Assembly (NCBI RefSeq): GCF_000247645.1
Contig: NZ_AHWA01000004.1
Coordinates: 1,054,001-1,118,000, forward strand
Direction of reading: 5' to 3'
Length of the DNA stretch: 64,000 bases
Origin: Salinibacterium sp. PAMC 21357
GTDB taxonomy: Bacteria > Actinomycetota > Actinomycetes > Actinomycetales > Microbacteriaceae
Made by a program: the position numbers and the translations under genes. Positions within the stretch are counted from its first letter, which is position 1. Each line of letters starts with the position of its first letter. Shown piece by piece: positions 20,738 to 37,320 of this stretch. Below the pieces are notes generated by a model that was not told where the DNA came from, did no database searches, and was given only the letters and a program-made list of their open reading frames with translations.

Positions 20738-20779
20738 AGGCTATTGGTGAGCACTAGCCGCTCGCGTCACCCGAGTGGG
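20738..20779 (-). promoter_or_regulatory. promoter module of the TRAP operon (shared island operator plus -10)
   Basis: Read toward dctP, the box CGGGTGACGCG (20773-20763), preceded by CCCA two bases away, lies 19 bases upstream of TAGCCT (20743-20738), a TAnnnT -10 hexamer. The same arrangement occurs upstream of the ligAB operon, the monooxygenase and the TPP enzyme. The predicted leader of about 200 nt to the dctP start is long. Between the module and dctP I see no gene. Confidence 0.55.
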
Positions 20780-20793
20780 TAGAATCGTTTATT

Positions 20794-20816
20794 CGCTACC
20801 CCTAGTAGGGGTAGCG
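20794..20816 (-). terminator. stem-loop over the aldehyde dehydrogenase stop codon
   Basis: CGCTACCCC pairs with GGGGTAGCG across five bases and includes the TAG stop of the aldehyde dehydrogenase gene. No T-tract follows; it may stabilise the 3' end or terminate weakly. Confidence 0.4.
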
Positions 20817-22256
20817 AGCCTGGCCGTGGTTGACCGAGATCCACTGTTGCGTTGTCAATTCGTCGATAGTTGCTTGACCACTCAGTCGCCCCATACCGGA
20901 GTGCCTTTCACCCCCGAAAGGCACTAGTGGCTCATCCGCAATGGTCGAGTCGTTAATGTGAATCATTCCGGTGTTGATGCGTTTTGCGATGCTCATGCCC
21001 AGAGCAAGATCGCGGGTGTGAAGCGCGCCACTGAGACCGTAGTTCGTGCTGTTAGCGATCTCGATGGCCTGATCATCCGATTCGAACTCCATAAACACAA
21101 TGACGGGGCCGAAGAGTTCCTCTTGAGCCACATCGTCGGTCATGGTTACGCTGTCGAGCACGACCGGGCCCAAGACGTTACCGACGGTTTCCCCCCGAAA
21201 TAGCGCGGTGGCTCCGTTAGCAAGCGCGGCGTCAATGCGGGTCTGCAGGTTCTGCACCTCGCGCTGGTTGATGAGCGGCCCGATAATCGTGGCGGGATCC
21301 GCCGGATCTCCAGTCTTCAGCGTCGACACTTTTTTCACAAACTTCTCTCGAAACTCTCGAGCGACCGCTGAGTGCACGAGAACCTTATTCGCCGACATGC
21401 AAATCTGACCTTGATGGGTGAAACGACTAAAGACAGCCGATTCCACCGCATAGTCAATGTCTGCATCCTCGCGCACGATGAAGACGTTGTTACCACCAAG
21501 TTCAAGAATGACCTTCTTGAAATTGCGAGCGCACACCTCGGCAACGTGGCGTCCCACCGGAGCAGACCCCGTGAATACGTGTGCACGGGGTACCGGGTGC
21601 TCTAGGAAATAATCACCAATCTCCGGGATCTCAGTGACGGTGACGTTGAAAAGACCCGGCGGGAGACCCGCTTCCTCAAAGATGTCGGCCATGATGGTTC
21701 CGCCAGTTATCGGGGTCTCTTCGTGCGGCTTCAAGACCACACCATTACCCGTCGACAGCGCCGCTACAACGGGCTTGAGGCCCAGAAAGAATGGGAAGTT
21801 GAAAGGACTAATGATTCCCACAACACCGAGCGCCTTGCGGTAAACGAAATTCTCCGTGTCTGGCACTGGTGACGGAATGATGCTGCCATGAATCTTGAAC
21901 GCGGTAGTCGCCGCATCCTTGATGGCTTCTACAACCAATCCGATCTCGAAGGCTGCTTTCAGCGCAGTGCCGCCCACCTCCTGAATAATCAGGTCCGCGA
22001 TCTCGTCATGACGCCGCGTCACTATTTCAGCAGCCTTCTCGAAGACACCGCGGCGAGCGTGGGCCGTCATTTTCTCCCACGCCGGTTGTGCGGCCTGAGC
22101 TGCCTCATACGCCTCATCGATGTCTTGCTTCGAGGCGATGCTGAACGATCCGATTTCGTCATTGTTGAACGGGTTAGTCACGACCAATTGCTTGCCGGTG
22201 GCGCCGTCACGCCATTCGCCGCCGATGTACTGTTTCGTGAGCTTGGTGAGATCCAT
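20802..22256 (-). CDS. aldehyde dehydrogenase, probably aromatic-aldehyde type
   Basis: This 484-aa NAD(P)-dependent dehydrogenase has the catalytic Glu motif ILELGGNN and the catalytic Cys in HQGQICMSANKV. The SPFNFPF and PFGGERHSGMGR blocks match benzaldehyde/salicylaldehyde/vanillin dehydrogenases. It would oxidise the aldehyde released by the hydratase-aldolase in the same cluster. I choose ATG 22256, since AAAGG is about nine bases upstream; the codon before it is TTG. It is the last gene of the long catabolic operon, after a 144-bp gap containing a hairpin. Confidence 0.92.
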   Translation of the reverse strand: MDLTKLTKQYIGGEWRDGATGKQLVVTNPFNNDEIGSFSIASKQDIDEAYEAAQAAQPAWEKMTAHARRGVFEKAAEIVTRRHDEIADLIIQEVGGTALKAAFEIGLVVEAIKDAATTAFKIHGSIIPSPVPDTENFVYRKALGVVGIISPFNFPFFLGLKPVVAALSTGNGVVLKPHEETPITGGTIMADIFEEAGLPPGLFNVTVTEIPEIGDYFLEHPVPRAHVFTGSAPVGRHVAEVCARNFKKVILELGGNNVFIVREDADIDYAVESAVFSRFTHQGQICMSANKVLVHSAVAREFREKFVKKVSTLKTGDPADPATIIGPLINQREVQNLQTRIDAALANGATALFRGETVGNVLGPVVLDSVTMTDDVAQEELFGPVIVFMEFESDDQAIEIANSTNYGLSGALHTRDLALGMSIAKRINTGMIHINDSTIADEPLVPFGGERHSGMGRLSGQATIDELTTQQWISVNHGQARYPY

Positions 22257-22352
22257 CAAGAACTACCTTTCGTGGGTGAGCGAGTTCTGCGGATTCAATC
22301 ACCAGCGCTACTGAGATCAGCCCTGCTTAATTGGCCCTGCAGCCAGACGGGG

Positions 22353-22390
22353 CGAGGCTGGGACGGGCAATCGTACCCGCCACAGCCTCG
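22353..22390 (-). terminator. intercistronic stem-loop after the hydrolase gene
   Basis: CGAGGCTG pairs with CAGCCTCG, with an inner ACGGG/CCCG pairing, in the gap between the hydrolase and aldehyde dehydrogenase genes. No T-tract is present, so partial termination or mRNA processing is more likely than a full stop. Confidence 0.4.
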
Positions 22391-22400
22391 GTCGCATTTT

Positions 22401-23537
22401 CTAGATGCGGTGGAGGAACCAGTCGCCTAGTCGTGCTCCTGCTACCGACATGTAGTCGTAGCTGCAGTGCAATGAGCCAGCTCCGTCATAGATATCTACT
22501 GTGACATCGTCGGAGGTCAGCGCCGCAACAAAGCGTTCCGCTCCCTTGATATCCATGATGATGTCGGCGGTGCCGTGCATCACGTAGACAGGGATCTTCA
22601 ACTTGTCGGCGATGCCGTCGAGAGTGAACTCGGCGAGCTTAGTGCGTGCCTCAGCGTCATCTTTCGAACCCGTCAACCACTGCAACTGCTTCTGAAGCGG
22701 CGGGTAGAACTCGTAGAAGTCAGTCAGAATGCTCCACGTACCGCACCACGCGGCGACAGCCTTGATGCGTGGCTCGAAGGCCGCAGCTCGCGGCGCGTAG
22801 TATCCACCGAAGCTCACTCCCGCGAGACCGAAACGATCTGCGTCGACATCGCTACGCTTCTCAAGGAAGTCGAGGATTGCCGCAACCGGTACCTCGTAAT
22901 CGGGGCGGCTGTACATTTCCTTGAAACGCAAGGAGCTTCCGCGACCAGGGGTATCCACCATTACGACGTTCATGCCACGCGCGGGGAACTCCGTTCCACC
23001 GAGAGAGTAAAGCTCTTCGGCCCACGAGTCGGCTCCGCCGAGGAAAAGTACCGTTGGACGGGCTTCGCCGGAGTTATCCGGGCGCACGATGTAGCCCTCC
23101 ATCTCCTGACCCTCGAAAGGAACGGCGATAGGTTCGATCAGTCCGCCCGAGAGCTCTGCTGCCTTTTGGAAGTTTTTCTTACCCTCGGTGTAGGCCACCG
23201 TGCGGCGAGGATCGAACGAGTCGAGGAAGAATTCCGAGTGACGCCAGTAGCTCATCGACCGGTGGAATGCACGACGGGCAGTCGTGTTTTCGCCACGCTC
23301 CAGTGCTGCAGCGCCCTCCGCGGCGGCGTCGGTCGCCGTGCGAGTCCATTCACGCTGCCAGACCTCTGGATCAGTAGTCTCCGTGCCGATCCGGCCTGCG
23401 GTGCGCGCACACTCAAAGAGGTCCGCCCCGCCGACCGCAACCTGCGAGAGTAACCGCATAGTCTGCAGCGACCAATCCTCGTCCTGGGGGAACAACTCGA
23501 TTAGCGACAGTGCATCGCCGTTGTTGCTAGTAGACAT
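22401..23537 (-). CDS. alpha/beta hydrolase (DUF1100/FrsA-like, related to pseudooxynicotine-type C-C hydrolases)
   Basis: This 378-aa protein has a helical N-terminal cap (to about residue 130) and an alpha/beta hydrolase core. The nucleophile is Ser242 in GVSFGG, with an acid in MHGTADII and a His in AGSLHCSYDY. The layout matches DUF1100 esterases and the C-C bond hydrolase acting on 2,6-dihydroxypseudooxynicotine. In a ring-cleavage cluster it could cleave a beta-diketone or ester intermediate. AAGGAG before ATG 23537 fixes the start. It lies in the operon between ferredoxin reductase and aldehyde dehydrogenase. The substrate is unknown. Confidence 0.8.
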   Translation of the reverse strand: MSTSNNGDALSLIELFPQDEDWSLQTMRLLSQVAVGGADLFECARTAGRIGTETTDPEVWQREWTRTATDAAAEGAAALERGENTTARRAFHRSMSYWRHSEFFLDSFDPRRTVAYTEGKKNFQKAAELSGGLIEPIAVPFEGQEMEGYIVRPDNSGEARPTVLFLGGADSWAEELYSLGGTEFPARGMNVVMVDTPGRGSSLRFKEMYSRPDYEVPVAAILDFLEKRSDVDADRFGLAGVSFGGYYAPRAAAFEPRIKAVAAWCGTWSILTDFYEFYPPLQKQLQWLTGSKDDAEARTKLAEFTLDGIADKLKIPVYVMHGTADIIMDIKGAERFVAALTSDDVTVDIYDGAGSLHCSYDYMSVAGARLGDWFLHRI

Positions 23538-23577
23538 TCTCAATCTCCTTCAGTGTTTTCTTGCAGTTCATGGTGAT

Positions 23578-24771
23578 CTAACGTGCCGCCGTGAGCGAAG
23601 CCTCGACAGCTTCATCCCACGGTGTACGGTTCTGAATCGCGACCTTGTACTTCGCGAGCTGGCGGGGAGAACCAATGCAGACAGCACCGATAAGCACCCC
23701 ATCGCGCCCAAAGGTCGCGACGAGCTTGTCATCGGTCATCGTCTCGATGTTGGTCTGGTCCGCCCCAGTGGTGCGACCAACGAAACGCATCTTGGTATCG
23801 AACTGATCAGTCCAAAAGTAAGGAACCGACGCGAAAGGATCACGGTTACCCAAAAGGGTGGATGCCGCATGGCGACCTTGATCAACAGCGTTCGTCCAAT
23901 GCTCAACGCGCATCTGCTCGCCGAAAATTGGGTTTCGCCAATTGACGATGTCTCCCGCCGCGACAACGTTTGGCAGGGACGTCTTCAAATCTGGGGTGCA
24001 GGCAACACCGTTCGAAAGCTCGATCCCGCTGTTGGCCAACCACTCCACCGCTGGGGTTGAACCGACACCAGCAACCACGATGTCTGCCTTGATTACGTTT
24101 CCATTTTTTAGGGTAACCACAGCGCCGTCGACGCCCCACTCAATTGCTTCGAGCGCGCTACCGCACCTCACGTCCACGCCATTGCGTTCGTGTAAACCTT
24201 GATACCACTGCCCAACGTCACCGACGAAAACTCGCGAGAGCGGTGCCGGACCGCGCGCAATCACCGTGACATCGAGTCCCTGCGCGCGGGCGGCGGCAGC
24301 GACTTCGAGGCCAATAAACCCACCACCGACAAGCACCAAGTGCTTTCCCGGCGCAAACTCTGCCCTTAACCTGACGGCGTCCTCCATGGAATGAAGTACA
24401 TGCAGTCGGGGGTCGCCGTGCGCAACAGACAATTCACGCACCGACGAACCAGTCGCAAGAACCAGGCCGTCGTACTCAAGCTCTGAGTCGTCAGCTAGAA
24501 CAACGCGTTGCGTAGCCGAGTCGAGACGACGAGCCGGATTTGCGAGTGCAACAGTGACTCCGTTCTGCTCGTACCAATCAGTCGGCTTCAGCAGAAGTTT
24601 CTCGGGAGCCATGTCCTCGAGGAGCATTTGCTTCGATAGCGGTGGCCGGTCATATGGCAAGCTTTCTTCAGCAGAGACCAGTGTCAGCTCCCCGTTGAAG
24701 CCGTGCTCGCGGAGAGCCTCAGCGGCATTTACTCCCGCCAAAGACCCCCCGACGACCACGATGCGATCCAT
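23578..24771 (-). CDS. NAD(P)H:ferredoxin reductase, aromatic dioxygenase component
   Basis: This 397-aa FAD/NAD-dependent reductase has the FAD motif GGSLAG near the N-terminus, YDRPPLSKQ, a second dinucleotide fold (VGGGFIGLEVAAAA near residue 150) and the late ATG/GD blocks (VVAAGDIVNW; RVEHWTNAVDQG) of BphA4/rubredoxin-reductase-like enzymes. It passes electrons from NADH to the adjacent ferredoxin for the Rieske oxygenase. Its ATG shares a base with the ferredoxin stop (TAATG), so the pair is co-translated. Confidence 0.92.
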   Translation of the reverse strand: MDRIVVVGGSLAGVNAAEALREHGFNGELTLVSAEESLPYDRPPLSKQMLLEDMAPEKLLLKPTDWYEQNGVTVALANPARRLDSATQRVVLADDSELEYDGLVLATGSSVRELSVAHGDPRLHVLHSMEDAVRLRAEFAPGKHLVLVGGGFIGLEVAAAARAQGLDVTVIARGPAPLSRVFVGDVGQWYQGLHERNGVDVRCGSALEAIEWGVDGAVVTLKNGNVIKADIVVAGVGSTPAVEWLANSGIELSNGVACTPDLKTSLPNVVAAGDIVNWRNPIFGEQMRVEHWTNAVDQGRHAASTLLGNRDPFASVPYFWTDQFDTKMRFVGRTTGADQTNIETMTDDKLVATFGRDGVLIGAVCIGSPRQLAKYKVAIQNRTPWDEAVEASLTAAR

Positions 24772-24977
24772 TAGAGATCCTCGACCACGATGGCTCGCGC
24801 CGGACACCCGCGCACTGACGCATCAGCTTGATTTCGGAGTGCTTCATCGTGCTCGTCTCCTCCAAGAATGATGGCCTTATTAGTGTCATCATCAATGTCG
24901 AAAAGTGCCGGTGCTTCGATGAGGCAGTTGGCATAGCCTTGGCAAAGGTCTAGATCGACCGTAACTTTAAACGCCAT
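24771..24977 (-). CDS. [3Fe-4S]-type ferredoxin
   Basis: This 68-aa ferredoxin has Cys12, Cys18 (CQGYANC) and Cys58 followed by Pro (RGCPARAI), i.e. three cluster ligands, with Tyr where a fourth Cys would be, as in ferredoxins serving P450s. Some actinobacterial ring dioxygenases (the phenanthrene dioxygenase of Nocardioides is the known case) use this type instead of a Rieske ferredoxin. The ATG at 24977 is better spaced from AAAGG than the one at 24986. It is coupled to the reductase gene downstream. Confidence 0.92.
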   Translation of the reverse strand: MAFKVTVDLDLCQGYANCLIEAPALFDIDDDTNKAIILGGDEHDEALRNQADASVRGCPARAIVVEDL

Positions 24978-25010
24978 TGACTTCATCCTTTCGTGCGGGT
25001 AGCGGTGCGG

Positions 25011-26213
25011 TTAGTGCCCCGGGGATTCGAGGTGCTCAATCGGCGGCGTGACCTCTGCTGCGCGAGCAGCCTGAGGTGTGTTTCGGCTGCGCAGCGTGCG
25101 CACGATACCGCCAGTGATGACGGCAGAGATTCCGGGAATATCGCCCACAGATAATGCCCCGAGGGCATCGTCTCTGGTCGAACCCCAGGGGGCGTCGAGC
25201 ACCACGATGTCGGCGGCCCGGCCCACGGCGATGAAGCCAGCCGGGAGATCCCACACATTCGCGTTATTGCCCGTCGCTGCGGCCCAGACCATGCCCGGAT
25301 CGACATCCGACAGTGATGAGAGTTCGGCGACCGTCTTCATCACGCCAAGCGGCATGACGCCAGTACCCGTCGGAGTATCCGAACCGATAACCACACGATC
25401 AAACACGTTTTTCTCAACGGCCCGATTGATCACGCGAACGGCTGCGCGAATGTTGCCCGCTTGCACAAGCTGCAGTGCCATATCCGTCTCATCCATGATC
25501 CGGTCAACGCCGTCTTCTGCGAGCGAAGTTGGTCCACCATTAATGTGGCCGCAAACATGTGGGGCAAGAAGCATCAGGTGCTCTGGCGTAATCGGCTTGC
25601 TGCCCGGAATGCTGGCGCCGCCCGAGTGGCTCATTACAGTAATGCCGTACTGCTTAGCCCAGGTCACTTGCGCCAAGCCATCGGCCGGATCGCTGTAGCG
25701 ACCGAAGCCGAACTTTGCGAGATGTACGCCAGCCTCCTGCAGCTCAGCGAAGTCCTTCTCCTGCAATGTCGGTTCCAACACCACAGCTCCCGCATGAACA
25801 GTCATGCCGTTGGGATGGAAATTGTCGAAACATTCCTTAGCGGCGATCGCGAGGGCCTTCACCCCGGAGGCCGTACTTGGGCGACCTGGTGCGTGAATCT
25901 CGCCTGGCGATACAACGCTGGTGATTCCACCGTGAACGTAGCTCGCAAGAAAGTCGACCGTCTTTTGGCGCGGCGTGTAATCGCCAAGAACAACATGGCA
26001 ATGCGAATCAATTAGGCCGGGAGCAACCGTCGTTCCCACCGCGTCGACAACGTACTTCGATGCGTCGACTTCGGCCTGCAAGTTGGCCTGCATTCCGACG
26101 GCCGTAATCTTGCCATCGCGAACAACGATGGTGTCAGCATCCGCAATAATCGGCGCACGCCAGTCACCAGAGAGAATCGTTCCGGCACCGATTACGGCTA
26201 GCGACCCGTTCAT
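25011..26213 (-). CDS. amidohydrolase family protein (enamidase-like)
   Basis: This 400-aa metal-dependent hydrolase starts with a small beta domain and has the metal motif DSHCH (His71, His73), a lysine candidate in LAKFGFG, His in MSHSGG and CGHINGG, and the catalytic Asp in VIGSDTPTG. The pattern is closest to enamidase/imidazolonepropionase-like enzymes that open cyclic amides. This implies an amide or lactam step, unusual in a ring-dioxygenase operon. Its ATG overlaps the stop of the AA_synth gene, so these two probably act together. The substrate is not known. Confidence 0.82.
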   Translation of the reverse strand: MNGSLAVIGAGTILSGDWRAPIIADADTIVVRDGKITAVGMQANLQAEVDASKYVVDAVGTTVAPGLIDSHCHVVLGDYTPRQKTVDFLASYVHGGITSVVSPGEIHAPGRPSTASGVKALAIAAKECFDNFHPNGMTVHAGAVVLEPTLQEKDFAELQEAGVHLAKFGFGRYSDPADGLAQVTWAKQYGITVMSHSGGASIPGSKPITPEHLMLLAPHVCGHINGGPTSLAEDGVDRIMDETDMALQLVQAGNIRAAVRVINRAVEKNVFDRVVIGSDTPTGTGVMPLGVMKTVAELSSLSDVDPGMVWAAATGNNANVWDLPAGFIAVGRAADIVVLDAPWGSTRDDALGALSVGDIPGISAVITGGIVRTLRSRNTPQAARAAEVTPPIEHLESPGH

Positions 26214-26794
26214 CGGTGCTTCTCCTGAGCTTCAGCGATCGACATGCCACCAACACGGGCATTAATCCGGCCACGGTTAGTCACAGCAGCAATCACCACG
26301 AGCTCGTCGGCATGGGGAGCATCCGGTACTCGAACTTCCATCGAGTCGTAGTGCGAGCGAACCCACACGTCGTCTTTGTACGCCGTGGGCACGTCGATGA
26401 CGGTACCGGCGACCGCAGGCTTCGTTACTGAAGTGATCCACGCAGCACCTCCACCGATTGCTTCGCGGAAGGCATTGCCGAAAATCGAGGTAAGCGCGGC
26501 ATTGACGTGCTCTTGCTCCCCAGAGGTTCCCACGAGGCCAGCTTTGCCGTAGCTTTCGACGGGAGCCCCGAGCAGCTGCAGTGCCTGCTCCCCGAGCATC
26601 GTTCCGATCTCCGTTGATGCCTCGACCAGAGCCGAGAGGTCTTCAACGTATCCCTGACCGGCAAACGGGTTCTTAATTACGGCGCACACAGCGACCTTGC
26701 GCACCGGGCCACCCGCATCAGTGTTACCCGCAGAAGAACGAGTCTCCTCGATTTGCGAAAACACCTTACGGATCTGGATCAGATTCTCAGTCAT
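26210..26794 (-). CDS. AA_synth (DUF1185) family protein
   Basis: This 194-aa protein has the family's features: VRKVAVCAVIKNPFAG with the following tyrosine, an EQALQLLG stretch, and a central GEQEHVNAALTSIFGNAFRE block followed by GGGAAWITSVTK. The Pfam name 'amino acid synthesis' is historical; no reaction has been firmly assigned to my knowledge. Members often sit next to hydrolases of cyclic amides or amino-acid-like compounds, as here. ATG 26794 has AGGA five bases upstream. It is coupled to the enamidase-like gene. Confidence 0.78.
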   Translation of the reverse strand: MTENLIQIRKVFSQIEETRSSAGNTDAGGPVRKVAVCAVIKNPFAGQGYVEDLSALVEASTEIGTMLGEQALQLLGAPVESYGKAGLVGTSGEQEHVNAALTSIFGNAFREAIGGGAAWITSVTKPAVAGTVIDVPTAYKDDVWVRSHYDSMEVRVPDAPHADELVVIAAVTNRGRINARVGGMSIAEAQEKHR

Positions 26795-26880
26795 TTCATT
26801 CCTCAATTTCTGGTTAGAACTTTGGGGACCGGGCCCCCGAATAGGTTGCGGGTTTCTGGTGCGGGCGAGAGCGGCACGAA

Positions 26881-27663
26881 CTAAAGGCGTCGACCGCCGT
26901 CAGTGCGGATCACGACGCCGGTGACAACGCGAGCATCGACAGGATCGGCGAGAAAGCGGTAGGCCCCGCTGTGGTCTTCCGGCATCGCAGTGATACCCAA
27001 CAATGTGCCAGCGGCAATCCGTTCATCTCGGCCGTCAACTTTGTCGGCGGTCATGGTCTGCCCGAGAGAGGAGAGGCCACCAAACTTGGTGCCACCGGTT
27101 CCTCCCGGCGCAACCCCATTGACTCGGATGACGGGAGCGAGTTCTGCTGCAAGGTGGTCGACGATTCCGCGCAGAGCCCATTTCGAGCTGCCGTAGAGAA
27201 CTCCGCCGCCGATCGCGTTAAAGGCGGATTCCGAGAGCGTCAGTGTGATCGAGCCGCACGCTTCCCGAAGAGCCGGAACCGCAATGTTTGCGGCAAGGAG
27301 CGTTGCGCGAACATTAATGCGCCAAATCTCGTCAGCAGCATCAATTAGTTCTGCTGGTGAGAGGTCGCTTACGCGAGAGTAGTTATCGAAGGCGCCTACT
27401 CCGCAGGTGAGGTTGTGCAACTTGCCGTTCTCATCCACTGCAGCTTCGACCGCACCGGTGAGCACGGCCGGATCAGTGGCGTCGCCCACGATGGTGCGGA
27501 TTCGGCCGCCCGAGGCTTCGCGGACCGCGTCCGCGCCGGCTGCTGAACGGTTAAGCACCGTGACGATCGCACCCTCACGGTCATATCGTTCGGCGGCGGC
27601 ACGGGCGATACCTGACCCGCCACCGGTGACGAGAATATGCATCCCGGCAAGGGAGTCGCTCAT
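26881..27663 (-). CDS. SDR dehydrogenase, cis-dihydrodiol dehydrogenase-like
   Basis: This 260-aa SDR has the NAD motif TGGGSGI near residue 14, the active-site YGSSK with a Ser about 15 residues before it, and TCGVGAFDNYSRV, which corresponds to the conserved segment of BphB/HcaB-type dihydrodiol dehydrogenases. It would rearomatise the cis-dihydrodiol formed by the Rieske dioxygenase to a catechol, yielding NADH. Its ATG overlaps the stop of the 92-aa gene upstream (ATGA). Confidence 0.87.
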   Translation of the reverse strand: MSDSLAGMHILVTGGGSGIARAAAERYDREGAIVTVLNRSAAGADAVREASGGRIRTIVGDATDPAVLTGAVEAAVDENGKLHNLTCGVGAFDNYSRVSDLSPAELIDAADEIWRINVRATLLAANIAVPALREACGSITLTLSESAFNAIGGGVLYGSSKWALRGIVDHLAAELAPVIRVNGVAPGGTGGTKFGGLSSLGQTMTADKVDGRDERIAAGTLLGITAMPEDHSGAYRFLADPVDARVVTGVVIRTDGGRRL

Positions 27664-27938
27664 GCGCCAGGGGTCCGAGCCAAGAGTTCAGTGATGAACT
27701 CAGGCTCTTGATAGCTGAGAACGTCGAGAGCCACTGCGTCGAAACGCACGCTGGTTCCGCGGCGCGGAGACCACAACTCGAGGCGCATACCATTGCGGGT
27801 CGAAATCTTGCGCACGACAACATCTGCAAACTCGTTCGCGATGACGATGGGTCCGACGTTTCCGCCGTCCTGGGGAAACTCGAAAACTTCGCCCTCGTCG
27901 GGGTTCTCCGCCTGAGGCCGAGGATTCGATTCAGTCAT
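27660..27938 (-). CDS. small conserved-looking protein in the dioxygenase operon
   Basis: This 92-aa acidic soluble protein has a Pro/Glu-rich N-terminus and a beta-rich core (GPIVIANEFADVVVRKI; LELWSPRRGTSVRFDAVAL). No cysteines, membrane helices or known motif are present. It lies between the oxygenase beta-subunit gene (12-nt gap) and the dihydrodiol dehydrogenase gene (overlapping), so it is translated with them and may be an accessory or assembly factor. I do not recognise the family. Confidence 0.7.
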   Translation of the reverse strand: MTESNPRPQAENPDEGEVFEFPQDGGNVGPIVIANEFADVVVRKISTRNGMRLELWSPRRGTSVRFDAVALDVLSYQEPEFITELLARTPGA

Positions 27939-27950
27939 GATGTGCTCCGA

Positions 27951-28469: not shown

Positions 28470-28471
28470 GA

Positions 28472-29786: not shown

Positions 29787-29818
29787 GATGACCTAACTGA
29801 TTTTGTGGTGGTTATTCG

Positions 29819-30844
29819 CTACTTGTTGCGGGCGCCCATACGCGCTTCGATTTCGGTGATGATCTGCTTGTAACGCTCGACGTGCTCGAAGGTGCTGTCC
29901 CAGTGCTTCTGCGGAACGAGGTCTTCGGTGTAAGGAACGCGGCTCTTACCAACGTGGATGTAGCCGGCTTCGTTGACGCGAATCTTTTCGAGGGGGATGT
30001 TGTACTTGGCGAACTCGAAGAAGTCCTGCCCAACGATGAAGGGCTCATGGGCCCAGCGCAGACGCTCGGTGAGCCAGCGTGCATCGTCCACACGGCCCTG
30101 CTGCAAAGCGTCACGCAGGTGCAGAACGGGGTCCGGACCCATCGCGGTCGTTGACGACCAGGCCATACCGACGAGGTCTTCGCCATACATTTCCCAAGCG
30201 GGGAACCAGTCAGTCTCGATCGGCATAAGCGGGAAGCGGGTTCCGGTGTGAGCCATGTCGTTGTGGTACCGGAAGCCAACTGATGCGCCACCGGCGTACT
30301 TCACGGCAACTACCTGCGGCAGTTCGATGAGGGTGCGGTAGACGGAGCGAGGAATGATTCCGCCGAAAGCTGCTGTGTTGTCGTAAACAACCATTGCCAT
30401 CTCAGGCACAGCCTCGGCTACATCGCGGTAGAACTTCTCCATAACAGGGGCAACCATTTCGCCCCACATTGGACGGCCAAGAAGGGTGCCGGTAGCACCA
30501 AGCTCAGAGAGGAAGCGCGTGCGCGCGATTGTCTCGCGAGTGCTCAGCGTGGTTGCGCCGACGAAAATCGGAAAGTCAGGGTTAATCGAGTGGGCGGTCT
30601 GTACGGCACACTCCGCGAATGCCTTCCACTCGTCGAGTGTCAGCGTTGCCATCTCGCCGAGGGTTCCGTTGAGCGCAATCGCGTCTACGCCGTCTGTGAT
30701 GAGCGCCTTGATCATGCGCTCGGTCTCAACGAGGTCTACGGTGTCCTGTGCTTCTACTAGCTCAGCACCAGGAAGAGCCGGGGTAGGAGGATAGGACATG
30801 ACGCCTCGCATGTCGCGACCTGTAACTTTAGGAAGCTTGCTCAT
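29819..30844 (-). CDS. hydratase-aldolase of the DapA superfamily (NahE/PhdJ-like)
   Basis: This 341-aa class I aldolase has the Schiff-base Lys182 in AVKYAGG, Tyr154 in VVYDNT, and GTLGEMATLT near residue 61. These positions and the length match trans-o-hydroxybenzylidenepyruvate and carboxybenzalpyruvate hydratase-aldolases rather than DapA itself (about 290 aa). Such enzymes split the isomerised meta-cleavage product into an aromatic aldehyde and pyruvate. In the operon it lies between the extradiol dioxygenase and the Rieske genes. Its aldehyde product would go to the dehydrogenase at 20802-22256. Confidence 0.9.
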   Translation of the reverse strand: MSKLPKVTGRDMRGVMSYPPTPALPGAELVEAQDTVDLVETERMIKALITDGVDAIALNGTLGEMATLTLDEWKAFAECAVQTAHSINPDFPIFVGATTLSTRETIARTRFLSELGATGTLLGRPMWGEMVAPVMEKFYRDVAEAVPEMAMVVYDNTAAFGGIIPRSVYRTLIELPQVVAVKYAGGASVGFRYHNDMAHTGTRFPLMPIETDWFPAWEMYGEDLVGMAWSSTTAMGPDPVLHLRDALQQGRVDDARWLTERLRWAHEPFIVGQDFFEFAKYNIPLEKIRVNEAGYIHVGKSRVPYTEDLVPQKHWDSTFEHVERYKQIITEIEARMGARNK

Positions 30845-30911
30845 ACTGTTTTCTCTTTTCGTAGAAGCCAGCCGCGAACAGACGCGACTGGCGGTAACTG
30901 GGTGGAACTGA

Positions 30912-31757
30912 TTACAGGTGAAGGCCGGGAGTCGCGGCCGCTACGGCCGTTCCTGTCAACCACTCGGGAACTGGTTCGTAGGCGAGCACTTCGAACGGAG
31001 CGCCGATCGCGCCCGCCGCAGCGATCCAGGTGCGCACTTCGTGAGCGCCATTCCCGGCAGCATCGATCTCTTGCGGGGAATAATTCTTGAGCTGCTCCGG
31101 GTCGCCACTTTCGATACGGGCGATGAAGTCACGGTCGAACTCTTCATTCACGGTGCCGGATTCAGGAAGTCCGACCCAGTGGGAGAGCCCGCCCGTTCCG
31201 ATGACGACGACGCGCTCAACCTCGTTTTGGGCCTCGATTGCGTGGCGGACCATGACGCCAAAGTCGTAACAGCGTTTAGCCGTCGGCCATGGCGGGTTTA
31301 CGCCATTGACGATGATCGGAACGAGGGGGTACTTGGACTCTGGATCCAGGTGCTTGAGCGGTACGCAGAAGTTTTCGTCGAACGCGAGACCACCCTCGAC
31401 GAGCGCGGGATCGAACTCGTTGGTGAGCGCGAACTCGTAGATGTGCCGCCCGAGCTTTCCGTTGCCGGGATAGTCGTGTTGCGGAACGTTGAGGAACTGA
31501 GACATCTCGGCCGTAACCGGGCCCAGGTAGGAATCTGCCGTCGCGATCGCGAATGCGGGCAGGTTACTGAAGTTGAAGTTGGTGAAGTGCTCCACTGAGA
31601 TCGCAACGATCGCGTCTGGCTTCAGCGCATCGATCCGACGTCGAGCCTCGGCGAAAGCGTTCTCAATCGCCTCGCGCTTTCGTGGCTCTGCACGCTCTGG
31701 CCATCCAGTCACTCCTGGAGAGTGGGATGCTGTGAACGCCCCGACAATTTTACCCAT
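30912..31757 (-). CDS. extradiol ring-cleavage dioxygenase, LigB-type catalytic subunit
   Basis: This 281-aa protein belongs to the class III (LigB) extradiol dioxygenases. An early His in FTASHSPG (His12), AIVAISVEHFTNF near residue 55 and a catalytic-type GTGGLSHWVG segment near residue 190 fit the iron-binding and acid-base His residues of LigB. It cleaves a catecholic ring next to the diol with O2. Its ATG overlaps the stop of the small LigA-like gene (TGATG), so the two subunits are co-translated. Whether the substrate is protocatechuate or a larger catechol cannot be told. Confidence 0.9.
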   Translation of the reverse strand: MGKIVGAFTASHSPGVTGWPERAEPRKREAIENAFAEARRRIDALKPDAIVAISVEHFTNFNFSNLPAFAIATADSYLGPVTAEMSQFLNVPQHDYPGNGKLGRHIYEFALTNEFDPALVEGGLAFDENFCVPLKHLDPESKYPLVPIIVNGVNPPWPTAKRCYDFGVMVRHAIEAQNEVERVVVIGTGGLSHWVGLPESGTVNEEFDRDFIARIESGDPEQLKNYSPQEIDAAGNGAHEVRTWIAAAGAIGAPFEVLAYEPVPEWLTGTAVAAATPGLHL

Positions 31758-32008
31758 CAGTTCTTCCCCTCACGGATCTGCTCGTAATAGCTCTCGCGGC
31801 TCACCTGCAGTTGCAGGGCGCAGAAATAAATCAGATAGGGGTTAGCCCCGATCTCGTGGAGCTTCTTGAAGTCGAGAGTCAGCATCGCTTCGCGTGCATC
31901 GCCCTCGAGGCTGTATTCATCGAGTACTAATGACGGAGTGGAGCGGAAGCGCTTTGCAAGATCGGGATCCTTACGGATCTCCCACAGCAATTTGTGCAGA
32001 CTGTACAT
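31757..32008 (-). CDS. LigA-like small subunit of the extradiol dioxygenase
   Basis: This 83-aa helical protein matches the LigA domain: LHKLLWEIRKDPDLAKRF, then LTLDFKKLHEIGANPYLI. The small subunit caps the active site of LigB-type dioxygenases. I use ATG 32008 because AGAGG is spaced seven bases upstream; a GTG at 32029 is in frame but less well placed. It is the first gene of the long leftward operon, about 80 nt downstream of the -10 of the shared promoter module. Confidence 0.88.
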   Translation of the reverse strand: MYSLHKLLWEIRKDPDLAKRFRSTPSLVLDEYSLEGDAREAMLTLDFKKLHEIGANPYLIYFCALQLQVSRESYYEQIREGKN

Positions 32009-32080: not shown

Positions 32081-32141
32081 TCACCTGAATCCTACGAAGA
32101 CCCTGTCCTTCTTCGCGTCACCCGTCTGGGGCATCTGTGGC
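32081..32141 (-). promoter_or_regulatory. promoter module of the main catabolic operon
   Basis: Read toward ligA, the order is GCCACAGATGCCCCA (32141-32127), two bases, CGGGTGACGCG (32124-32114), 15 bases, TTCGTAGGATTC (32098-32087) containing the -10 TAGGAT (32094-32089). The same blocks with identical spacing recur in the opposite orientation at 33239-33301 ahead of the monooxygenase. The operator box covers roughly positions -30 to -45 of the predicted promoter. Confidence 0.7.
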
Positions 32142-32233
32142 GATTGGGAAGAGTTTTCGGTTGTTCTCACTTGCGCAGTTTCCGTAGCCAATAAATGGTT
32201 GCGGGTTCCTGTTGTGAAGTCACACTACACAGA

Positions 32234-32540: not shown

Positions 32541-33206
32541 ATGCCGCCAGACGAGTTCACGGTCACCACTGACTCAGTCATTGATATTCGCGACGCCCTC
32601 AAACAGGCCATCGCAAACGGCGAATACGCGCCAGGAGTCAAGCTCGTTGAGCGAGAGCTCACCCAGCGTTACGGCATCGGCCGCACCGGCGTTCGAGACG
32701 CCATCCGCCACCTCGCCGCCCAAGGCATCATTGAACTCACCGAAAATCGTGGTGCCCGGGTGAGCGAGTTGAGCTACGCCGAGGCCATCGATATGTACCA
32801 AGTACGCGGCGTACTCGAGGGACTGGCCGGTGAGCTCTTTGCTGTGCGGGGCTCAGCAGAAGAGAAAATGCAATTTGCTGAATCTCTGGAACCCGTGCGG
32901 AACGCCATCGAGGCATCCGACATCACGAGCGCGCTCATCGCAAGTGACATTTACTACGGGCATCTCCTGCGTGGTGCCCGCAACGCAGAGCTACACGAGA
33001 TCATCGAACAACTGCACGTGCGCATCAACCAGATCCGTCGCGTCTCGCTCTCCGTTGAGTCGCAGGCCAAGCCCACAATCGACGCTCTCCAAAAGATCGT
33101 CAACGCGGTACTCGCCGGTGACCCCACCGACGCTCGGAACGCCTGCATCGATCACGTCAAAGCCTCCGCTGCCGCGACCCTGCCGGCCATGGCCCGAACG
33201 CTCTAA
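32541..33206 (+). CDS. GntR-family regulator with FCD ligand-binding domain
   Basis: This 221-aa regulator has an N-terminal winged helix (IRDALKQAIANGEYAPG; QRYGIGRTGVRDAIRHLAAQ) and an all-helical FCD domain (EAIDMYQVRGVLEGLAGELF; later the His-bearing SDIYYGHLLRGARN). GGAG six bases before ATG 32541 sets the start and excludes the open frame upstream. FCD regulators commonly repress catabolic operons and release DNA when an organic acid binds. The gene is divergent from the main operon and precedes the monooxygenase, which makes it the leading candidate regulator of the island. TTGTCGACA sites upstream are its likely own operators. Confidence 0.92.
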   Translation: MPPDEFTVTTDSVIDIRDALKQAIANGEYAPGVKLVERELTQRYGIGRTGVRDAIRHLAAQGIIELTENRGARVSELSYAEAIDMYQVRGVLEGLAGELFAVRGSAEEKMQFAESLEPVRNAIEASDITSALIASDIYYGHLLRGARNAELHEIIEQLHVRINQIRRVSLSVESQAKPTIDALQKIVNAVLAGDPTDARNACIDHVKASAAATLPAMARTL

Positions 33207-33238: not shown

Positions 33239-33301
33239 GCCACAGATGCCCCAACCGGGTGACGCGGCACCGCCCCGCGAGTTCGTAGGATTCAGAGGTG
33301 A
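33239..33301 (+). promoter_or_regulatory. promoter module of the flavin monooxygenase gene
   Basis: GCCACAGATGCCCCA (33239-33253), two bases, CGGGTGACGCG (33256-33266), 15 bases, TTCGTAGGATTC (33282-33293) with -10 TAGGAT (33286-33291). This repeats the module at 32081-32141 with the same spacing and the same orientation relative to the gene it serves. A hairpin at 33327-33352 lies in the predicted 5' leader. Confidence 0.7.
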
Positions 33302-33326
33302 CGTGATTATCGCACCGATTCCATCT

Positions 33327-33352: not shown

Positions 33353-33424
33353 TTCGTGGGATTTTCGCACGATCGCTTCGGCACCGCCCATCATCGAGTG
33401 ATCCTAGTGGCGAGAGGAGATCTG

Positions 33425-35320
33425 ATGCAGTTTCATCAAGACGGCTACGTTTCAGGCGACCCGCGTATCCACGTTGCGTCCACAATCGGAGACGAACGTC
33501 CGCACGAAATTCCGGACAACGTCGATGTCCTCATCGTCGGTACAGGCCCGGCAGGAATGATCGCCGCCGCGCAGCTCTCCCAGTTTCCAAACGTCACCAC
33601 GAGAATCGTGGAGCAACGAGCCGGGAGGCTCGAAATCGGGCAAGCTGACGGAATCCAGCCACGCAGCGTTGAGACATTTCATGCCTTCGGGTTCGCGCAA
33701 CAGATAATCCAAGAGGCGTACCAGCGATCTGAAACGTGTTTCTGGAAGCCAGACCCCGCCGATCCTACGCGGATCACTCGCGCTGCAGTCACCCCCGATG
33801 ACGATAAATCCATCAGCGAATTTCCGCGCCTCACCGTCAATCAAGCACGTGTGCTCGACTATTTTGCCGAGGTGGCCGCCAACTCACCGACCCGCGTCGC
33901 TCCAGACTGCGGAACCGAGTTCATCGACTTAGAGATCGCGAGCGAAGGTGTCTACCCCGTTGCCGTCACCCTCAGAACCGTCGCAGGCGAGGAGCGCGTC
34001 ATCCACGCAAAGTATGTCCTCGGTGCTGACGGTGCACGCAGCAAGGTGCGGGCAGCAATCGGCTGCGTCTCCTCGGGCGAGCGAGCGAACCACGCGTGGG
34101 GTGTGATCGATGCCTTGGCCGTTACCGATTTCCCCGACATCCGTTCGAAGTGCACCATCCAATCAGATGCCGGCAATATTCTGCTCATCCCGCGTGAAGG
34201 TGGGTATCTATTTCGCATGTACGTCGACCTCGGAGCGGTAGCTAATGACAACGACGGTGCGGTGCGCCGCACGACAGCGAACCAGATCGTCGCGAAAGCA
34301 AATGAGATCCTTCACCCCTATGTTCTCGACGTGAAAGAAGTTGCTTGGCACAGCGTCTATGAGGTTGGCCATCGAGTAACGGATCGTTTCGACGACGTTC
34401 CCTTAGCTGAAGTCGGCACCCGCGCGCCACGCGTCTTCATCGCCGGTGACGCCTGCCACACCCACAGCGCAAAGGCAGGACAGGGGATGAACGTATCGAT
34501 GCAGGATGGCTGGAATAACGCCTGGAAGCTCGGTCATGTGCTGGAAGGGCGCAGCCCGCAGAGCTTGTTGGCGACATACTCCGTTGAACGCCATCAGGTC
34601 GCCCACGACCTGATCGACTTTGACCGTACATGGTCAACAATGCTCGCTAAAAAGCCTGAAGAGTTCGAGAGCACCTCGGAACTAGAAGACTTCTACGTTC
34701 GGACGGGTGAATTTCCCGCAGGATTCCTGACTCAGTACACGGAGTCACTTCTTACCGATAACGCAGATCATCAAGAATTGGCGTCAGGATTTGCACTTGG
34801 TAAGCGCTTCAAATCAGCCATGGTCACGCGTGTCTGTGACGGAAATCCCCTTCACCTTGGCCATCAAGCAACCGCCGATGGGCGTTGGCGCATTTATGTC
34901 TTTGCCGACGCCGCGCCAGCAGTAGCCCTCGACGGTGCCCCGTCGGTGGGTTCCTTTGCGGTCGATAACTTTGCGCGCTGGTTGGCAGATTCGGCAGATT
35001 CGCCGTTGTCTGCACCCCCGGATGGCCCCGGTACAGGGGCACGGTTCCACGTCAACGTGATCTACCCGGCCTCGCACCGCGCAGTCGACGTCAGTGCGGT
35101 TCCGGCGGTGTTCAGACCCCTGGTTGGCCCGTTCTCTCTGATCAATTATGAAAACATCTATGCACTCAACGCCGCCGAAAATATTTTTGAGCAGCGCGGA
35201 ATTTCGCGCGCCGGCGTTGTTGTTGTCGTTCGGCCTGACCAGTACGTGTCACTGATAGCCCCACTTGCTGACGCAGCCGATCAGCTCACAGCATTCTTTC
35301 GACCACTCCTGGCCACCTGA
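33425..35320 (+). CDS. FAD-dependent aromatic monooxygenase (3-hydroxybenzoate 4-monooxygenase/phenol hydroxylase-like)
   Basis: This 631-aa class A flavin monooxygenase has the FAD motif GTGPAG (residues 39-44), the DG-type motif GADGARSKVR, the GD motif IAGDACHTHSAKAGQGMN, and a C-terminal thioredoxin-like domain (about residues 460-631). Length and motifs match MobA-type 3-hydroxybenzoate 4-hydroxylase and phenol 2-monooxygenases. AGGAG five bases before ATG 33425 sets the start. It is the only catabolic gene on the plus strand but carries the shared promoter module, so it should be induced with the main operon, perhaps hydroxylating a ring product to protocatechuate (inference). Confidence 0.88.
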   Translation: MQFHQDGYVSGDPRIHVASTIGDERPHEIPDNVDVLIVGTGPAGMIAAAQLSQFPNVTTRIVEQRAGRLEIGQADGIQPRSVETFHAFGFAQQIIQEAYQRSETCFWKPDPADPTRITRAAVTPDDDKSISEFPRLTVNQARVLDYFAEVAANSPTRVAPDCGTEFIDLEIASEGVYPVAVTLRTVAGEERVIHAKYVLGADGARSKVRAAIGCVSSGERANHAWGVIDALAVTDFPDIRSKCTIQSDAGNILLIPREGGYLFRMYVDLGAVANDNDGAVRRTTANQIVAKANEILHPYVLDVKEVAWHSVYEVGHRVTDRFDDVPLAEVGTRAPRVFIAGDACHTHSAKAGQGMNVSMQDGWNNAWKLGHVLEGRSPQSLLATYSVERHQVAHDLIDFDRTWSTMLAKKPEEFESTSELEDFYVRTGEFPAGFLTQYTESLLTDNADHQELASGFALGKRFKSAMVTRVCDGNPLHLGHQATADGRWRIYVFADAAPAVALDGAPSVGSFAVDNFARWLADSADSPLSAPPDGPGTGARFHVNVIYPASHRAVDVSAVPAVFRPLVGPFSLINYENIYALNAAENIFEQRGISRAGVVVVVRPDQYVSLIAPLADAADQLTAFFRPLLAT

Positions 35321-35338
35321 GGTGCGCGAGGCCGATTT

Positions 35339-36985
35339 CTAGTGGCCTACGAAGTCTTGCGCCGCCCACTCGCCAACAATGGTGGGATCGATCACGACGT
35401 CCAGCAGGAGCGGACCATCGCGGTGCCCATCCCAGTCCTTGATGACATCGAGCTCGTCGAGCGTGTGCACGGTCACTACTCGTGCGCCCGAGCCAGAGGT
35501 GAGCGCCCCGATATCCGTGTCTGCGAATCGCACAAGGTCGACGTGAGGATCATCGGCGCCGAAATGATGAACTTCGGCCCCATAGGCTCCATCGTTGTAA
35601 ATCACGATCACGATCGGCAGGTTGAGTCGAACAATCGTCTCGAGTTCTGAGATTCCCATGAGGAAGCCGCCATCGCCAGACGCCAACACGACTGTGCGAT
35701 CAGGCCGCCCAATTGCGGCGCCAACGGCGGATCCCATCCCAAGTCCGATCGACTGAAAACCTGCGCTTGAGAAGACGAAACCTGCAGAATCAGGAATGCT
35801 GAGTCCGCGAACGGGCCAGCCAATGAAATGACCACCGTCGACGACCAGCGTCCGTTCGCGAGGCAACAGTGTCTCGAGGCGGGCTGTAACTTCGCCCGGA
35901 TGAAGTGGGCGTCCGGCTGCAGTGGCGTAAGCAGGAGCGTCAGCCGCGAGATTTCGTTGTTCCGATTGCGAGAGACCAGCCCCCTCACGACGTTGTGTGG
36001 GCAAGAGTTCCAGAAGCGCGGCGACTGTTTCCCGCGCATCGCCCAACACCGCGACGTCGGCGTAGGCACTGGCGTGAAGGCCGGGCAACTCTGAGTCGAC
36101 CTGAATCACCGTTGGTTTGTTATCAAACAACGTTCCGGCCCGTGTTGTCCAGGTGGTCAACGATGCTCCCACCACGAGAACCACGTCGGCGGCGTGCACC
36201 TGCGCCACAGTCGCGTCCGCGGAGAACCCCCCACAGATCCCCAGAAGTCGATCATTTCCCGTAAAGAGACCGTGAGCCATCGCTGACGTGCACAGTTTGG
36301 CATCCAAAATTTCGGCAAGATCTGCCAATACAGCTTCTGCCCCAGAAAGTAATGCACCGCGGCCGGCAAGAATCACGGGGCGTTCTGCTCTCGAAAGTTG
36401 TGCGGCGATTGACGCCAAAGCCGCAGCCGGTGGAACCACACGGGGACGATCCCGCAGGGGCGGGATCAACGATGAGTCGAATTCAACCATCGTCTCTTGC
36501 ACGTCGATAGGTACCGCCAGAACGATCGGGCGACGTTCATCCTTCGCACGTTGCAGCACTGCGGCCACATCCTCGACTGCCGTCTCGGGAGACCTAATGG
36601 TCTCGTAGCCGGCACCTACTGACTCAACGAGAGCTTGTTGATCGATGAGAAAATTCGAGCGACGGGTACTCGCCGACGTCGCCCCAGAAATCACGACCAG
36701 CGGAACGCGCGACTTCACTGCTTCACCCAAAGCCGTTACCGTATTCGACAACCCCGGCCCCTGATGAACGCTCGCGGCCGCAATTTCGCCGGTCGTACGC
36801 CAGAGCGCATCCGCCATGGATACAGCGGCACTTTCATGACGGGCCGGTACGAAGCGGGCGCCGACCGACTTAAGCGCTGCCGTCGGCAAATAGTTTCCGC
36901 TGCCAACAACCCCGAACACGGTACCGACACCTTGCGCCCGGAGGACACTGCCGATCACGGTTGCCACTGTCACAATGTCCGACAT
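35339..36985 (-). CDS. thiamine diphosphate-dependent decarboxylase/acetolactate synthase-like enzyme
   Basis: This 548-aa ThDP enzyme has the catalytic Glu51 in ARHESAAVSMADA, a central domain, and the GDG cofactor motif (ASGDGGFLMGISELETIV to IVIYND). It resembles benzoylformate decarboxylase and catabolic acetolactate synthase-like proteins; the divergence prevents a firm choice, and no small regulatory ALS subunit is nearby. AGGAG seven bases before ATG 36985 sets the start. It converges with the monooxygenase (18-bp gap). The shared promoter module at 37279-37320 places it in the island regulon, where it may decarboxylate an aromatic 2-oxo acid. Confidence 0.82.
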   Translation of the reverse strand: MSDIVTVATVIGSVLRAQGVGTVFGVVGSGNYLPTAALKSVGARFVPARHESAAVSMADALWRTTGEIAAASVHQGPGLSNTVTALGEAVKSRVPLVVISGATSASTRRSNFLIDQQALVESVGAGYETIRSPETAVEDVAAVLQRAKDERRPIVLAVPIDVQETMVEFDSSLIPPLRDRPRVVPPAAALASIAAQLSRAERPVILAGRGALLSGAEAVLADLAEILDAKLCTSAMAHGLFTGNDRLLGICGGFSADATVAQVHAADVVLVVGASLTTWTTRAGTLFDNKPTVIQVDSELPGLHASAYADVAVLGDARETVAALLELLPTQRREGAGLSQSEQRNLAADAPAYATAAGRPLHPGEVTARLETLLPRERTLVVDGGHFIGWPVRGLSIPDSAGFVFSSAGFQSIGLGMGSAVGAAIGRPDRTVVLASGDGGFLMGISELETIVRLNLPIVIVIYNDGAYGAEVHHFGADDPHVDLVRFADTDIGALTSGSGARVVTVHTLDELDVIKDWDGHRDGPLLLDVVIDPTIVGEWAAQDFVGH

Positions 36986-37206
36986 GAAATTTCTCCTCAT
37001 CGTGCAGCCAAACGCGCCAAGCTGCGATTCACCGAAAACGCGTGCATAAGCGCCCCTGTTCTTGTCAAGCGCAAGGCGTCACGGCATTGGTCAACACAAC
37101 CGGGCACCCTTGCCCGCAGCGGCAAACGTGCTCGGAGCGCGGCCTAAACACAGCTCGCGATCCTCACAAATTTTCCGCGACAGCTTCGAAGGCGCTGCGG
37201 CCGCAA

Positions 37207-37223
37207 GTGTCGTTGCACGACAC
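37207..37223. repeat. short perfect inverted repeat upstream of the ThDP enzyme gene
   Basis: GTGTCGT and ACGACAC flank TGC, giving a 17-bp inverted repeat in the intergenic region 36986-37433. It lies between the predicted -10 (37281-37286) and the start codon, so it could be a repressor site or a leader hairpin. The rest of this region, apart from the promoter module at 37279-37320, shows nothing recognisable. Confidence 0.4.
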
Positions 37224-37278
37224 AAATCGCCGCATTGCCTCTAAAGAAATAACTGACATCGAACTAACGAGTCACGCC

Positions 37279-37320
37279 TAATTTTACGAGAAGGGCGAAA
37301 ATCTCGTGTCACCCACTTGA
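37279..37320 (-). promoter_or_regulatory. promoter module of the ThDP enzyme gene (fourth, weaker copy)
   Basis: Read toward the gene, TGGGTGACACG (37315-37305; nine of eleven matches to the island box) lies 18 bases upstream of TAAAAT (37286-37281), a good -10. The surrounding bases match 8 of 12 positions of the TTCGTAGGATTC block found in the two best copies. The leader to ATG 36985 would be about 290 nt. Confidence 0.45.

Follow-up and report, generated by a model that had tools for sequence, protein, structure and literature searches.

The stretch of DNA considered here (the window) spans 64,000 nucleotides (nt) of Salinibacterium sp. PAMC 21357 (contig NZ_AHWA01000004.1, positions 1,054,001 to 1,118,000) and carries an island for aromatic catabolism, which comprises the TRAP uptake operon dctPQM, the ligAB ring-cleavage operon, a flavin monooxygenase gene and the gene of a thiamine diphosphate (ThDP)-dependent enzyme. 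Copies of an 11-bp box, CGGGTGACGCG, lie upstream of these units. The box is quite probably one half of a palindromic operator, TACCCGNNCGGGTRA, to which a dimer of the island's LuxR-type protein with a GAF domain (GAF-LuxR) would bind, activating the regulon as a class II activator. The mechanism is of a known kind and the regulon is new; no description of the operator or of its regulator was found in the open-access literature, subscription journals being mostly outside the search.

Box copies and promoter geometry

A sequence-only reading of the window had described the box in three exact copies, at 20763-20773 (minus strand), 32114-32124 (minus) and 33256-33266 (plus), upstream of dctP, ligA and the monooxygenase gene, respectively, and in a 9/11 copy, TGGGTGACACG, at 37305-37315 (minus) upstream of the gene for the ThDP enzyme; all these coordinates were reproduced. 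The TAnnnT hexamer proposed to follow at 18-19 nt was found at all four units, at 19 nt for dctP (TAGCCT), ligA (TAGGAT) and the monooxygenase gene (TAGGAT) and at 18 nt for the ThDP enzyme (TAAAAT), and the box lies on the strand of its gene at 4/4 sites, its orientation thus flipping with the gene as had been stated. The longer similarity claimed for the two best copies also holds, since those of ligA and of the monooxygenase gene match at 93% across 28 nt and have TTCGTAGGATTCAG in common. The 3.1-Mb genome contains no exact CGGGTGACGCG beyond the three island copies, and this is the sole 11-mer that occurs in at least three of the four promoter regions. Taken alone the box is unremarkable: with up to two mismatches allowed, its 52 occurrences in the window compare with an expectation of 48, which is no enrichment, and 108 different 11-mers are repeated there at least three times. 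It is by their placement, by genome-wide exactness and by their matrix ranks that the copies stand out.

The box is real, and the element to which it belongs is larger than had been read, its left half having been seen in part only. The box forms the right half of a palindrome of 14-15 bp, TACCCG-NN-CGGGTRA(CGCG), which lies 22-24 nt from the TAnnnT hexamer. If this hexamer is the -10 element, occupying positions -12 to -7, the midpoint of the palindrome is at about -43.5 (range -42.5 to -44.5) from the predicted transcription start, a position suggesting a class II activator. The proposal of a shared, regulated promoter module over the -35 region is supported by its conservation and by a scan for the sigma70 consensus, which in 20500-37500 found 0 TTGACA/TATAAT promoters (5.3 expected), a result that fits dependence on an activator. 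The predicted elements are listed below, where bits and ranks are those of a matrix trained on other genera, R1 is a sequence-only Infernal profile and G012 is a genome of the same genus, all described further on.

20767..20781, minus strand: predicted dctPQM operator of the GAF-LuxR type, TACCCACTCGGGTGA, whose right half makes up the box together with CGCG; 28.2 bits, window rank 1; top R1 match in its own genome; 21/24 bases as in G012
20738..20743, minus strand: dctP -10 hexamer TAGCCT, 23 nt past the operator
32118..32132, minus strand: predicted ligAB operator (promoter P1), GCCCCAGACGGGTGA; 11.4 bits, window rank 3; 22/24 bases as in G012
32089..32094, minus strand: -10 hexamer TAGGAT of ligA P1; 12/12 bases of the -10 region the same in G012
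33248..33262, plus strand: predicted flavin monooxygenase operator, GCCCCAACCGGGTGA; 11.9 bits, window rank 2; second R1 match in its own genome; 20/24 bases as in G012
33286..33291, plus strand: -10 hexamer TAGGAT of the proposed monooxygenase promoter
37309..37323, minus strand: predicted ThDP operator, the weakest, AGCTCAAGTGGGTGA; 7.5 bits, window rank 6; 23/24 bases as in G012; missed by R1
37281..37286, minus strand: ThDP -10 hexamer TAAAAT, 22 nt past the operator

Two hairpins lie close to these promoters. At 33327-33352, between the monooxygenase promoter and its gene, an 11-bp hairpin (GGGAAGCCCTG..TAGGGCTTCCC) without a clean T-run is found in a leader segment of about 100 nt that is missing from G012; it is either an attenuator or an insertion remnant. 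Immediately upstream of the dctP operator, CTACCCCTAGTAGGGGTAG (20796-20814) forms a hairpin that overlaps the aldehyde dehydrogenase stop codon and is probably an operon-end hairpin, its arms being nonetheless operator-like.

Conservation of the operator within the genus

A search of 60 relatives with LigB gave one close orthologue beyond the own genome, that of G012, which is also the only one of 26 same-genus relatives searched in which the island was found (LigB 95%). LigB and GAF-LuxR were further searched in 398 evenly drawn genomes of the family each and matched the own genome alone at E 1e-40, from which the island appears to be sparse in the family.

The box is kept in G012 at all four genes, with no mismatch at ligA, one each at the ThDP enzyme and dctP and two at the monooxygenase gene, and with TAnnnT 18-19 nt onward. 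The operator bases are the same at 22/24 (ligA), 20/24 (monooxygenase), 23/24 (ThDP) and 21/24 (dctP) positions, and the upstream flanks at 36/60, 20/60 and 14/60 for the first three; the dctP operator of G012, CACCCA-GT-TGGGTG, has two perfect arms. The encoded proteins, compared in frame, show 90% identity for gntR and 70-86% for the monooxygenase, the latter in three pieces; in G012 the monooxygenase is itself broken into three. When 80 kb of G012 were scanned with the matrix, the sites ranked first (dctP), fourth (ThDP), fifth (ligA) and eleventh (monooxygenase). Acceptance of the ThDP site rests mainly on its being kept in G012. The sequence-only reading had staked its proposal on conservation before orthologous genes, which is present both in this relative and, as described below, in other families. 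At L089 12751-12801, G012 also has a second TRAP dctP, 49% identical to that of the window, with its own palindrome, TACCCAAACGGGTA, about 94 nt upstream.

Conservation and scoring across genera

The LigB search of related loci returned 51 loci; the best 25 were compared with the window proteins, and 15 of these (L037-L051) had a recognisable orthologous cluster. TACCCG-NN-CGGGTRA is found upstream in the clusters of Streptomyces, Streptomonospora, Mycobacterium/Mycolicibacterium, Amycolatopsis jejuensis, Phytoactinopolyspora and strain JB111, in several of them with the CGCG tail. Outside the genus, the two-block promoter made of operator and TAnnnT precedes ligA, dctP, DUF1185, abh or aldh operons, and it is present in Rhodococcus as well. 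Palindromes outside annotated genes, collected with no -10 required, numbered 115, counting both readings of symmetrical sites and weaker sites of the window's genus; the distance to TAnnnT is 22 nt in 3 of them, 23 nt in 19 and 24 nt in 3, and every other offset occurs at most three times. CCC, GGG and TAnnnT are shared by 19/19 aligned non-genus sites, in part by construction, as these were picked for palindrome likeness.

A matrix was built from 28 sites of 10 of the 11 non-genus clusters, Amycolatopsis taiwanensis (G443) having yielded no training site. Applied to both strands of the window (about 128,000 positions), it placed the dctP, monooxygenase, ligA and ThDP sites at ranks 1, 2, 3 and 6, with the bit scores listed above. 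Shuffled sequence has 0.4 sites of at least 18 bits per Mb, and the compared regions, those of the training clusters among them, have 48 per Mb. A cluster on a Rhodococcus plasmid, which was outside the training, carries sites that score 31.2, 24.6 and 22.9 bits, the strongest before its own LuxR gene. Two weaker sites of this cluster (L193 29158 and 33175; 13.5 and 14.6 bits) precede genes for a cupin and a phenylacetaldoxime dehydratase, possible further members of the regulon.

Of the 21 sites whose gap is 23, the R1 profile was made from 19, two chance-like ones (G445 39182, G450 28001) being dropped; the matrix retained its full set of 28. In the own genome R1 listed 3 matches, headed by dctP (E 0.0035) and then the monooxygenase (E 0.17); in the window dctP, monooxygenase and ligA were the first three of 9 matches and the ThDP site was unlisted. 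Nine of twelve same-genus genomes gave matches, several of which equalled the monooxygenase site; these whole-genome scans scored 150 candidates per genome. A scan of the own genome for ACCCNNNNGGGTRAC at one mismatch found 134 places, the reversed control 89, and the four exact ACCCNNNNGGGTRAC places outside the island (L170-L173) score 11.1 bits at best.

The GAF-LuxR protein as the predicted activator

16553..17629, plus strand: gene of the GAF-LuxR regulator, proposed activator on the basis of its Pfam domains (GAF PF01590, GerE PF00196) and of operator co-occurrence

The protein ends with a GerE helix-turn-helix (HTH; PF00196, residues 292-347, 54.8 bits), which matches the structures of NarL, GerE and DevR. 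Orthologues (39-100% identity) are encoded in 17 genomes and on the Rhodococcus plasmid, and a site of at least 18 bits is found in 17/18 of these loci, namely in 15/17 genomes directly, in G469 after the adjoining 15 kb were added, and on the plasmid. None of the three clusters lacking an orthologue has such a site (Microbacterium G438, Leucobacter sp. 7(1) G440 and HRbin24 G451, the last covered over 12 kb). The training group contributes 11/18 of the GAF-LuxR loci, and the remaining 7/7 have sites. An all-against-all comparison of the open reading frames (ORFs) of 14 clusters found three named families in 14/14, GAF-LuxR, the hydratase-aldolase and LigB, making GAF-LuxR the sole regulator family seen in all the clusters compared; of the 23 unnamed families present in at least 5 genomes, ten were checked, none of which had a Pfam match and most of which resembled reverse-strand ORFs, and the remaining 13 were assessed by eye.

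That the box goes with the regulator and not with the pathway is seen in Ca. Leucobacter sulfamidivorax (G439), where the relocated GAF-LuxR gene, 24 kb from ligA in another gene set, has a site on either side (26.3 and 18.9 bits) and ligA has none. The neighbours of the regulator gene there were read as an acyl-CoA ligase, an enoyl-CoA hydratase, a luciferase-like monooxygenase and an ABC transporter. Among the 18 orthologues the recognition segment reads ENTVKQHLKR in 14, ENTTKQHLKR in the window and in G012, QNTVKQHIKR in G441 and, in G443, THTVRQHVKR. It diverges further in paralogues of 28-30% identity. GAF-LuxR paralogues of G447 (L106, L108; 30-32% identity) are also near palindromes, of the ACCCG-NN-TGGGT-like or ACCCG-NN-CGGGT kind and without the -10 spacing, so that related operators are perhaps a trait of the family.

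In the mechanism proposed from these sites, their spacing, conservation and co-occurrence, the GAF-LuxR dimer would bind the palindrome, for example TACCCACTCGGGTGACGCG, beside RNA polymerase; its GAF domain presumably senses a compound of the pathway, and the effector-bound dimer would activate transcription from the class II position. One regulon would then comprise TRAP uptake, ring cleavage by LigAB, the monooxygenase and, less strongly, the ThDP enzyme. The sequence-only reading had likewise joined the four units; the ThDP copy is the weakest member.

Several observations weigh against this assignment. Window ranks 4 and 5 are chance sites inside the reductase gene (11.2 bits) and bcE1b (7.9 bits); the ligA and monooxygenase scores are close to the former and the ThDP score is below the latter. 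At ligA and the monooxygenase gene the operator has a degenerate left half, GCCCCA, and in G012, with 150 of 1308 candidates scored, R1 gave no match. Among ten other same-genus genomes, three devoid of the island gave the best R1 matches, at E 0.027, 0.034 and 0.054, better than the monooxygenase site, and when 21 R1 loci (L195-L215) were rescored with the matrix, 2/19 beyond the window sites reached 18 bits; one of the two, L197 1505 in the island-less genome G005, scores 19.2 bits and is followed by TAGCGT at the proper distance. Since good scores occur in island-less genomes too, score alone does not make the ligA, monooxygenase or ThDP site significant: by score the dctP site alone stands out genome-wide, and the others rest on box exactness, place and conservation. 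Among the loci outside the training, G469 is close to the trained G447, and G550 is congeneric with the trained G442. In the window itself the GAF-LuxR gene has no strong site before it. Finally, A. taiwanensis has the regulator and no site above 14.7 bits; about 720 nt upstream of its ligA (L149/L150), where relatives have the standard operator, it has GCCTCA-AA-GAGGCC with the usual flanks and -10 spacing. Judging from this single case, operator and recognition helix (THTVRQH vs ENTVKQH) appear to have changed together.

Alternative binders of the box

A different regulator encoded outside the clusters, for example a global one, might bind the palindrome. Such a protein would account for the isolated good sites of island-less genomes and for the distance between the GAF-LuxR gene and the nearest strong site, 3-5 kb in several genomes and 20 kb in G447, and the binding of GAF-LuxR is itself a prediction; it would leave unexplained that the three clusters without GAF-LuxR have no site of at least 18 bits, that such sites are so much denser in the compared regions than in shuffled sequence, and that in G439 they stay with the regulator. 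We therefore regard an outside regulator as improbable.

The box may also be read as the -35 element of a promoter for an alternative sigma factor, with no activator site at all. The constant distance to the -10 hexamer and the overlap with -35 would be expected from such a promoter, but the conserved part is palindromic (with the reservation made above on how the 19 sites were picked), the hexamer is an ordinary TAnnnT, and the presence of the element follows the GAF-LuxR gene. The palindrome in particular disfavours this explanation, which is very unlikely.

The GntR/FCD protein is the second candidate regulator encoded in the island, and its gene is placed between two of the boxes; it could bind them and repress the four units until released by an aromatic acid. 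This is slightly less likely still. In the 11 non-genus training clusters no close GntR is encoded (best 26-35% identity, or no match) and the box is found in 10/11, whereas G438 and G440 have a close GntR, no GAF-LuxR orthologue and no box. A close GntR co-occurs instead with another sequence, the paired TTGTCGACAA at ligA, as detailed in the next section. On this co-occurrence the protein was rejected as the binder of the box. That the copies are due to chance or to the shared ancestry of duplicated DNA, as the near-expected count of the box and the other thrice-repeated 11-mers might suggest, is scarcely credible in view of the cross-genus conservation at fixed spacing and of a box and -10 kept amid diverged flanks; a chance repeat is rejected for the dctP, ligA and monooxygenase sites and is still conceivable for the ThDP site.

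A second predicted operator and the GntR/FCD protein

32541..33206, plus strand: gene of the GntR/FCD regulator (Pfam GntR, FCD), proposed to bind TTGTCGACAA
32234..32243, minus strand: predicted GntR/FCD-type operator at a second ligA promoter (P2), exact TTGTCGACAA, 6 nt before TAGTGT; kept in G012
32222..32227, minus strand: TAGTGT, proposed from sequence as the -10 hexamer of ligA P2
32420..32429, no strand assigned: second predicted GntR/FCD-type operator, TTGTCGACAT, its end 112 nt before the gntR start

A close GntR orthologue (at least 63% identity) was found in 5/17 genomes searched (G000, G012, G438, G439 and G440), and all five have a pair of TTGTCGACAA copies, at up to one mismatch, between gntR and ligA; the sequence is found within 450 nt of ligA in 0/12 genomes without a close GntR. 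The copy on the side of ligA lies 6-7 nt before TAnnnT in 5/5. In G448 a copy with one mismatch is found 52 nt from the DUF1185 gene, and in G440 dctP has a copy with two mismatches in the same arrangement, the loose scan that gave it also returning seven scattered hits with no identified gene behind them. Co-occurrence across genomes thus favours GAF-LuxR as the regulator acting at the box, and GntR/FCD as the one acting at this different operator.

Separately from GAF-LuxR, the GntR/FCD protein would bind TTGTCGACAA between ligA and its own gene, repressing ligA P2 and probably itself; repression is suggested by the position of TTGTCGACAA just upstream of the -10. As judged from these motifs, ligA seems to be under dual control, with P2 repressed by GntR and P1 activated by GAF-LuxR. 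A tentative history, to which we give not quite even credence, is that an old GAF-LuxR activator, acting at TACCCGNNCGGGTA, was replaced at ligA, and in Leucobacter sp. 7(1) also at dctP, by a younger GntR/FCD repressor acting at TTGTCGACAA wherever GAF-LuxR was missing or had departed, and that in the genus of the window both act on ligA, each at a promoter of its own.

Comparison with known systems

With NarL of E. coli the GAF-LuxR system has in common the GerE HTH, the inverted repeat and the TACCC half-site, which resembles the start of the NarL heptamer, TACYYMT (PMC4886647). NarL has a receiver domain in the place of the GAF domain, and the setting here is aromatic catabolism. The recognition segment of GAF-LuxR (TTKQHLKR in the window, TVKQHLKR in 14/18 orthologues) is similar to that of NarL, and the half-sites lie 2 nt closer than in the 7-2-7 arrangement of NarL. 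The system works like the NarL regulon and is not a member of it, having neither the 7-2-7 arrangement nor the receiver.

Lux boxes are usually centred at -42.5 (PMC4471428); if the TAnnnT hexamer is the -10, the palindrome would lie near this position and overlap -35 as they do. It differs in its core of 14 bp vs 20 bp and in its actinobacterial host. Unlike the LuxR quorum regulators, GAF-LuxR showed no acyl-homoserine lactone domain in the Pfam scan. The GerE HTH is common also to regulators of the DevR/OsdR type, which are two-component response regulators and have a different operator. To the PhdJ/NahE hydratase-aldolases of polycyclic aromatic degradation the island is linked only by the enzyme family.

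The GntR/FCD protein has its own parallel. PrpR of P. aeruginosa is a GntR protein of propionate metabolism. The likeness to this GntR/FadR subfamily concerns the second operator only and not the box: the sequence of that operator equals the predicted PrpR motif, ATTGTCGACAAT (PMC9765439), and TTGTCGACAA fits the FadR-subfamily consensus, NyGTM-N0-1-KACNy (PMC4494728). The FadR-type GT..AC core is present in TTGTCGACAA and absent from TACCCGNNCGGGTA.

A concrete operator, a regulator and a promoter geometry are thereby supplied for a widespread actinobacterial cluster of aromatic catabolism, and the operator can be used to find more members of the regulon, such as the Rhodococcus cupin and phenylacetaldoxime dehydratase sites, and to narrow the substrate. 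The exchange of activator and repressor at one operon makes the rewiring of catabolic control testable; if it is true, the same orthologous operon could be compared under activator-only, repressor-only and dual control.

Genes of the island and possible substrate

17700..20533, minus strand: dctPQM, TRAP uptake operon; the dctP and dctM frames are broken in the assembly
20802..32008, minus strand: ligAB, PhdJ-like hydratase-aldolase, Rieske dioxygenase, cis-diol dehydrogenase-like protein, DUF1185, amidohydrolase, reductase, alpha/beta hydrolase and aldehyde dehydrogenase; Rieske dioxygenase and reductase named by reading only
33425..35320, plus strand: flavin monooxygenase of the phenol 2-monooxygenase subfamily (NF006144, 932 bits)
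35339..36982, minus strand: ThDP-dependent enzyme (Pfam TPP_enzyme N/M/C)

The operon encodes a DapA-like protein that matches PhdJ (6DAN, E 3e-70), and a second protein encoded within 20802-32008 resembles 2,6-dihydroxypseudooxynicotine hydrolase (2JBW, E 1e-24). The Rieske dioxygenase, LigAB, the hydratase-aldolase, this hydrolase-like protein, DUF1185 and the amidohydrolase travel together across actinobacteria, and most are also found in the bin HRbin24. Judging from the Rieske dioxygenase, the cis-dihydrodiol dehydrogenase-like protein, LigAB and the PhdJ-like hydratase-aldolase of the operon, an aromatic compound with two rings or with a side chain is a plausible substrate. Three of the reading frames, those of dctP and dctM (17700-20533) and of the Rieske large subunit (28549-29786), are each split over two frames, owing either to assembly indels or to recent decay; in G012 the pieces of the dioxygenase are in one frame.

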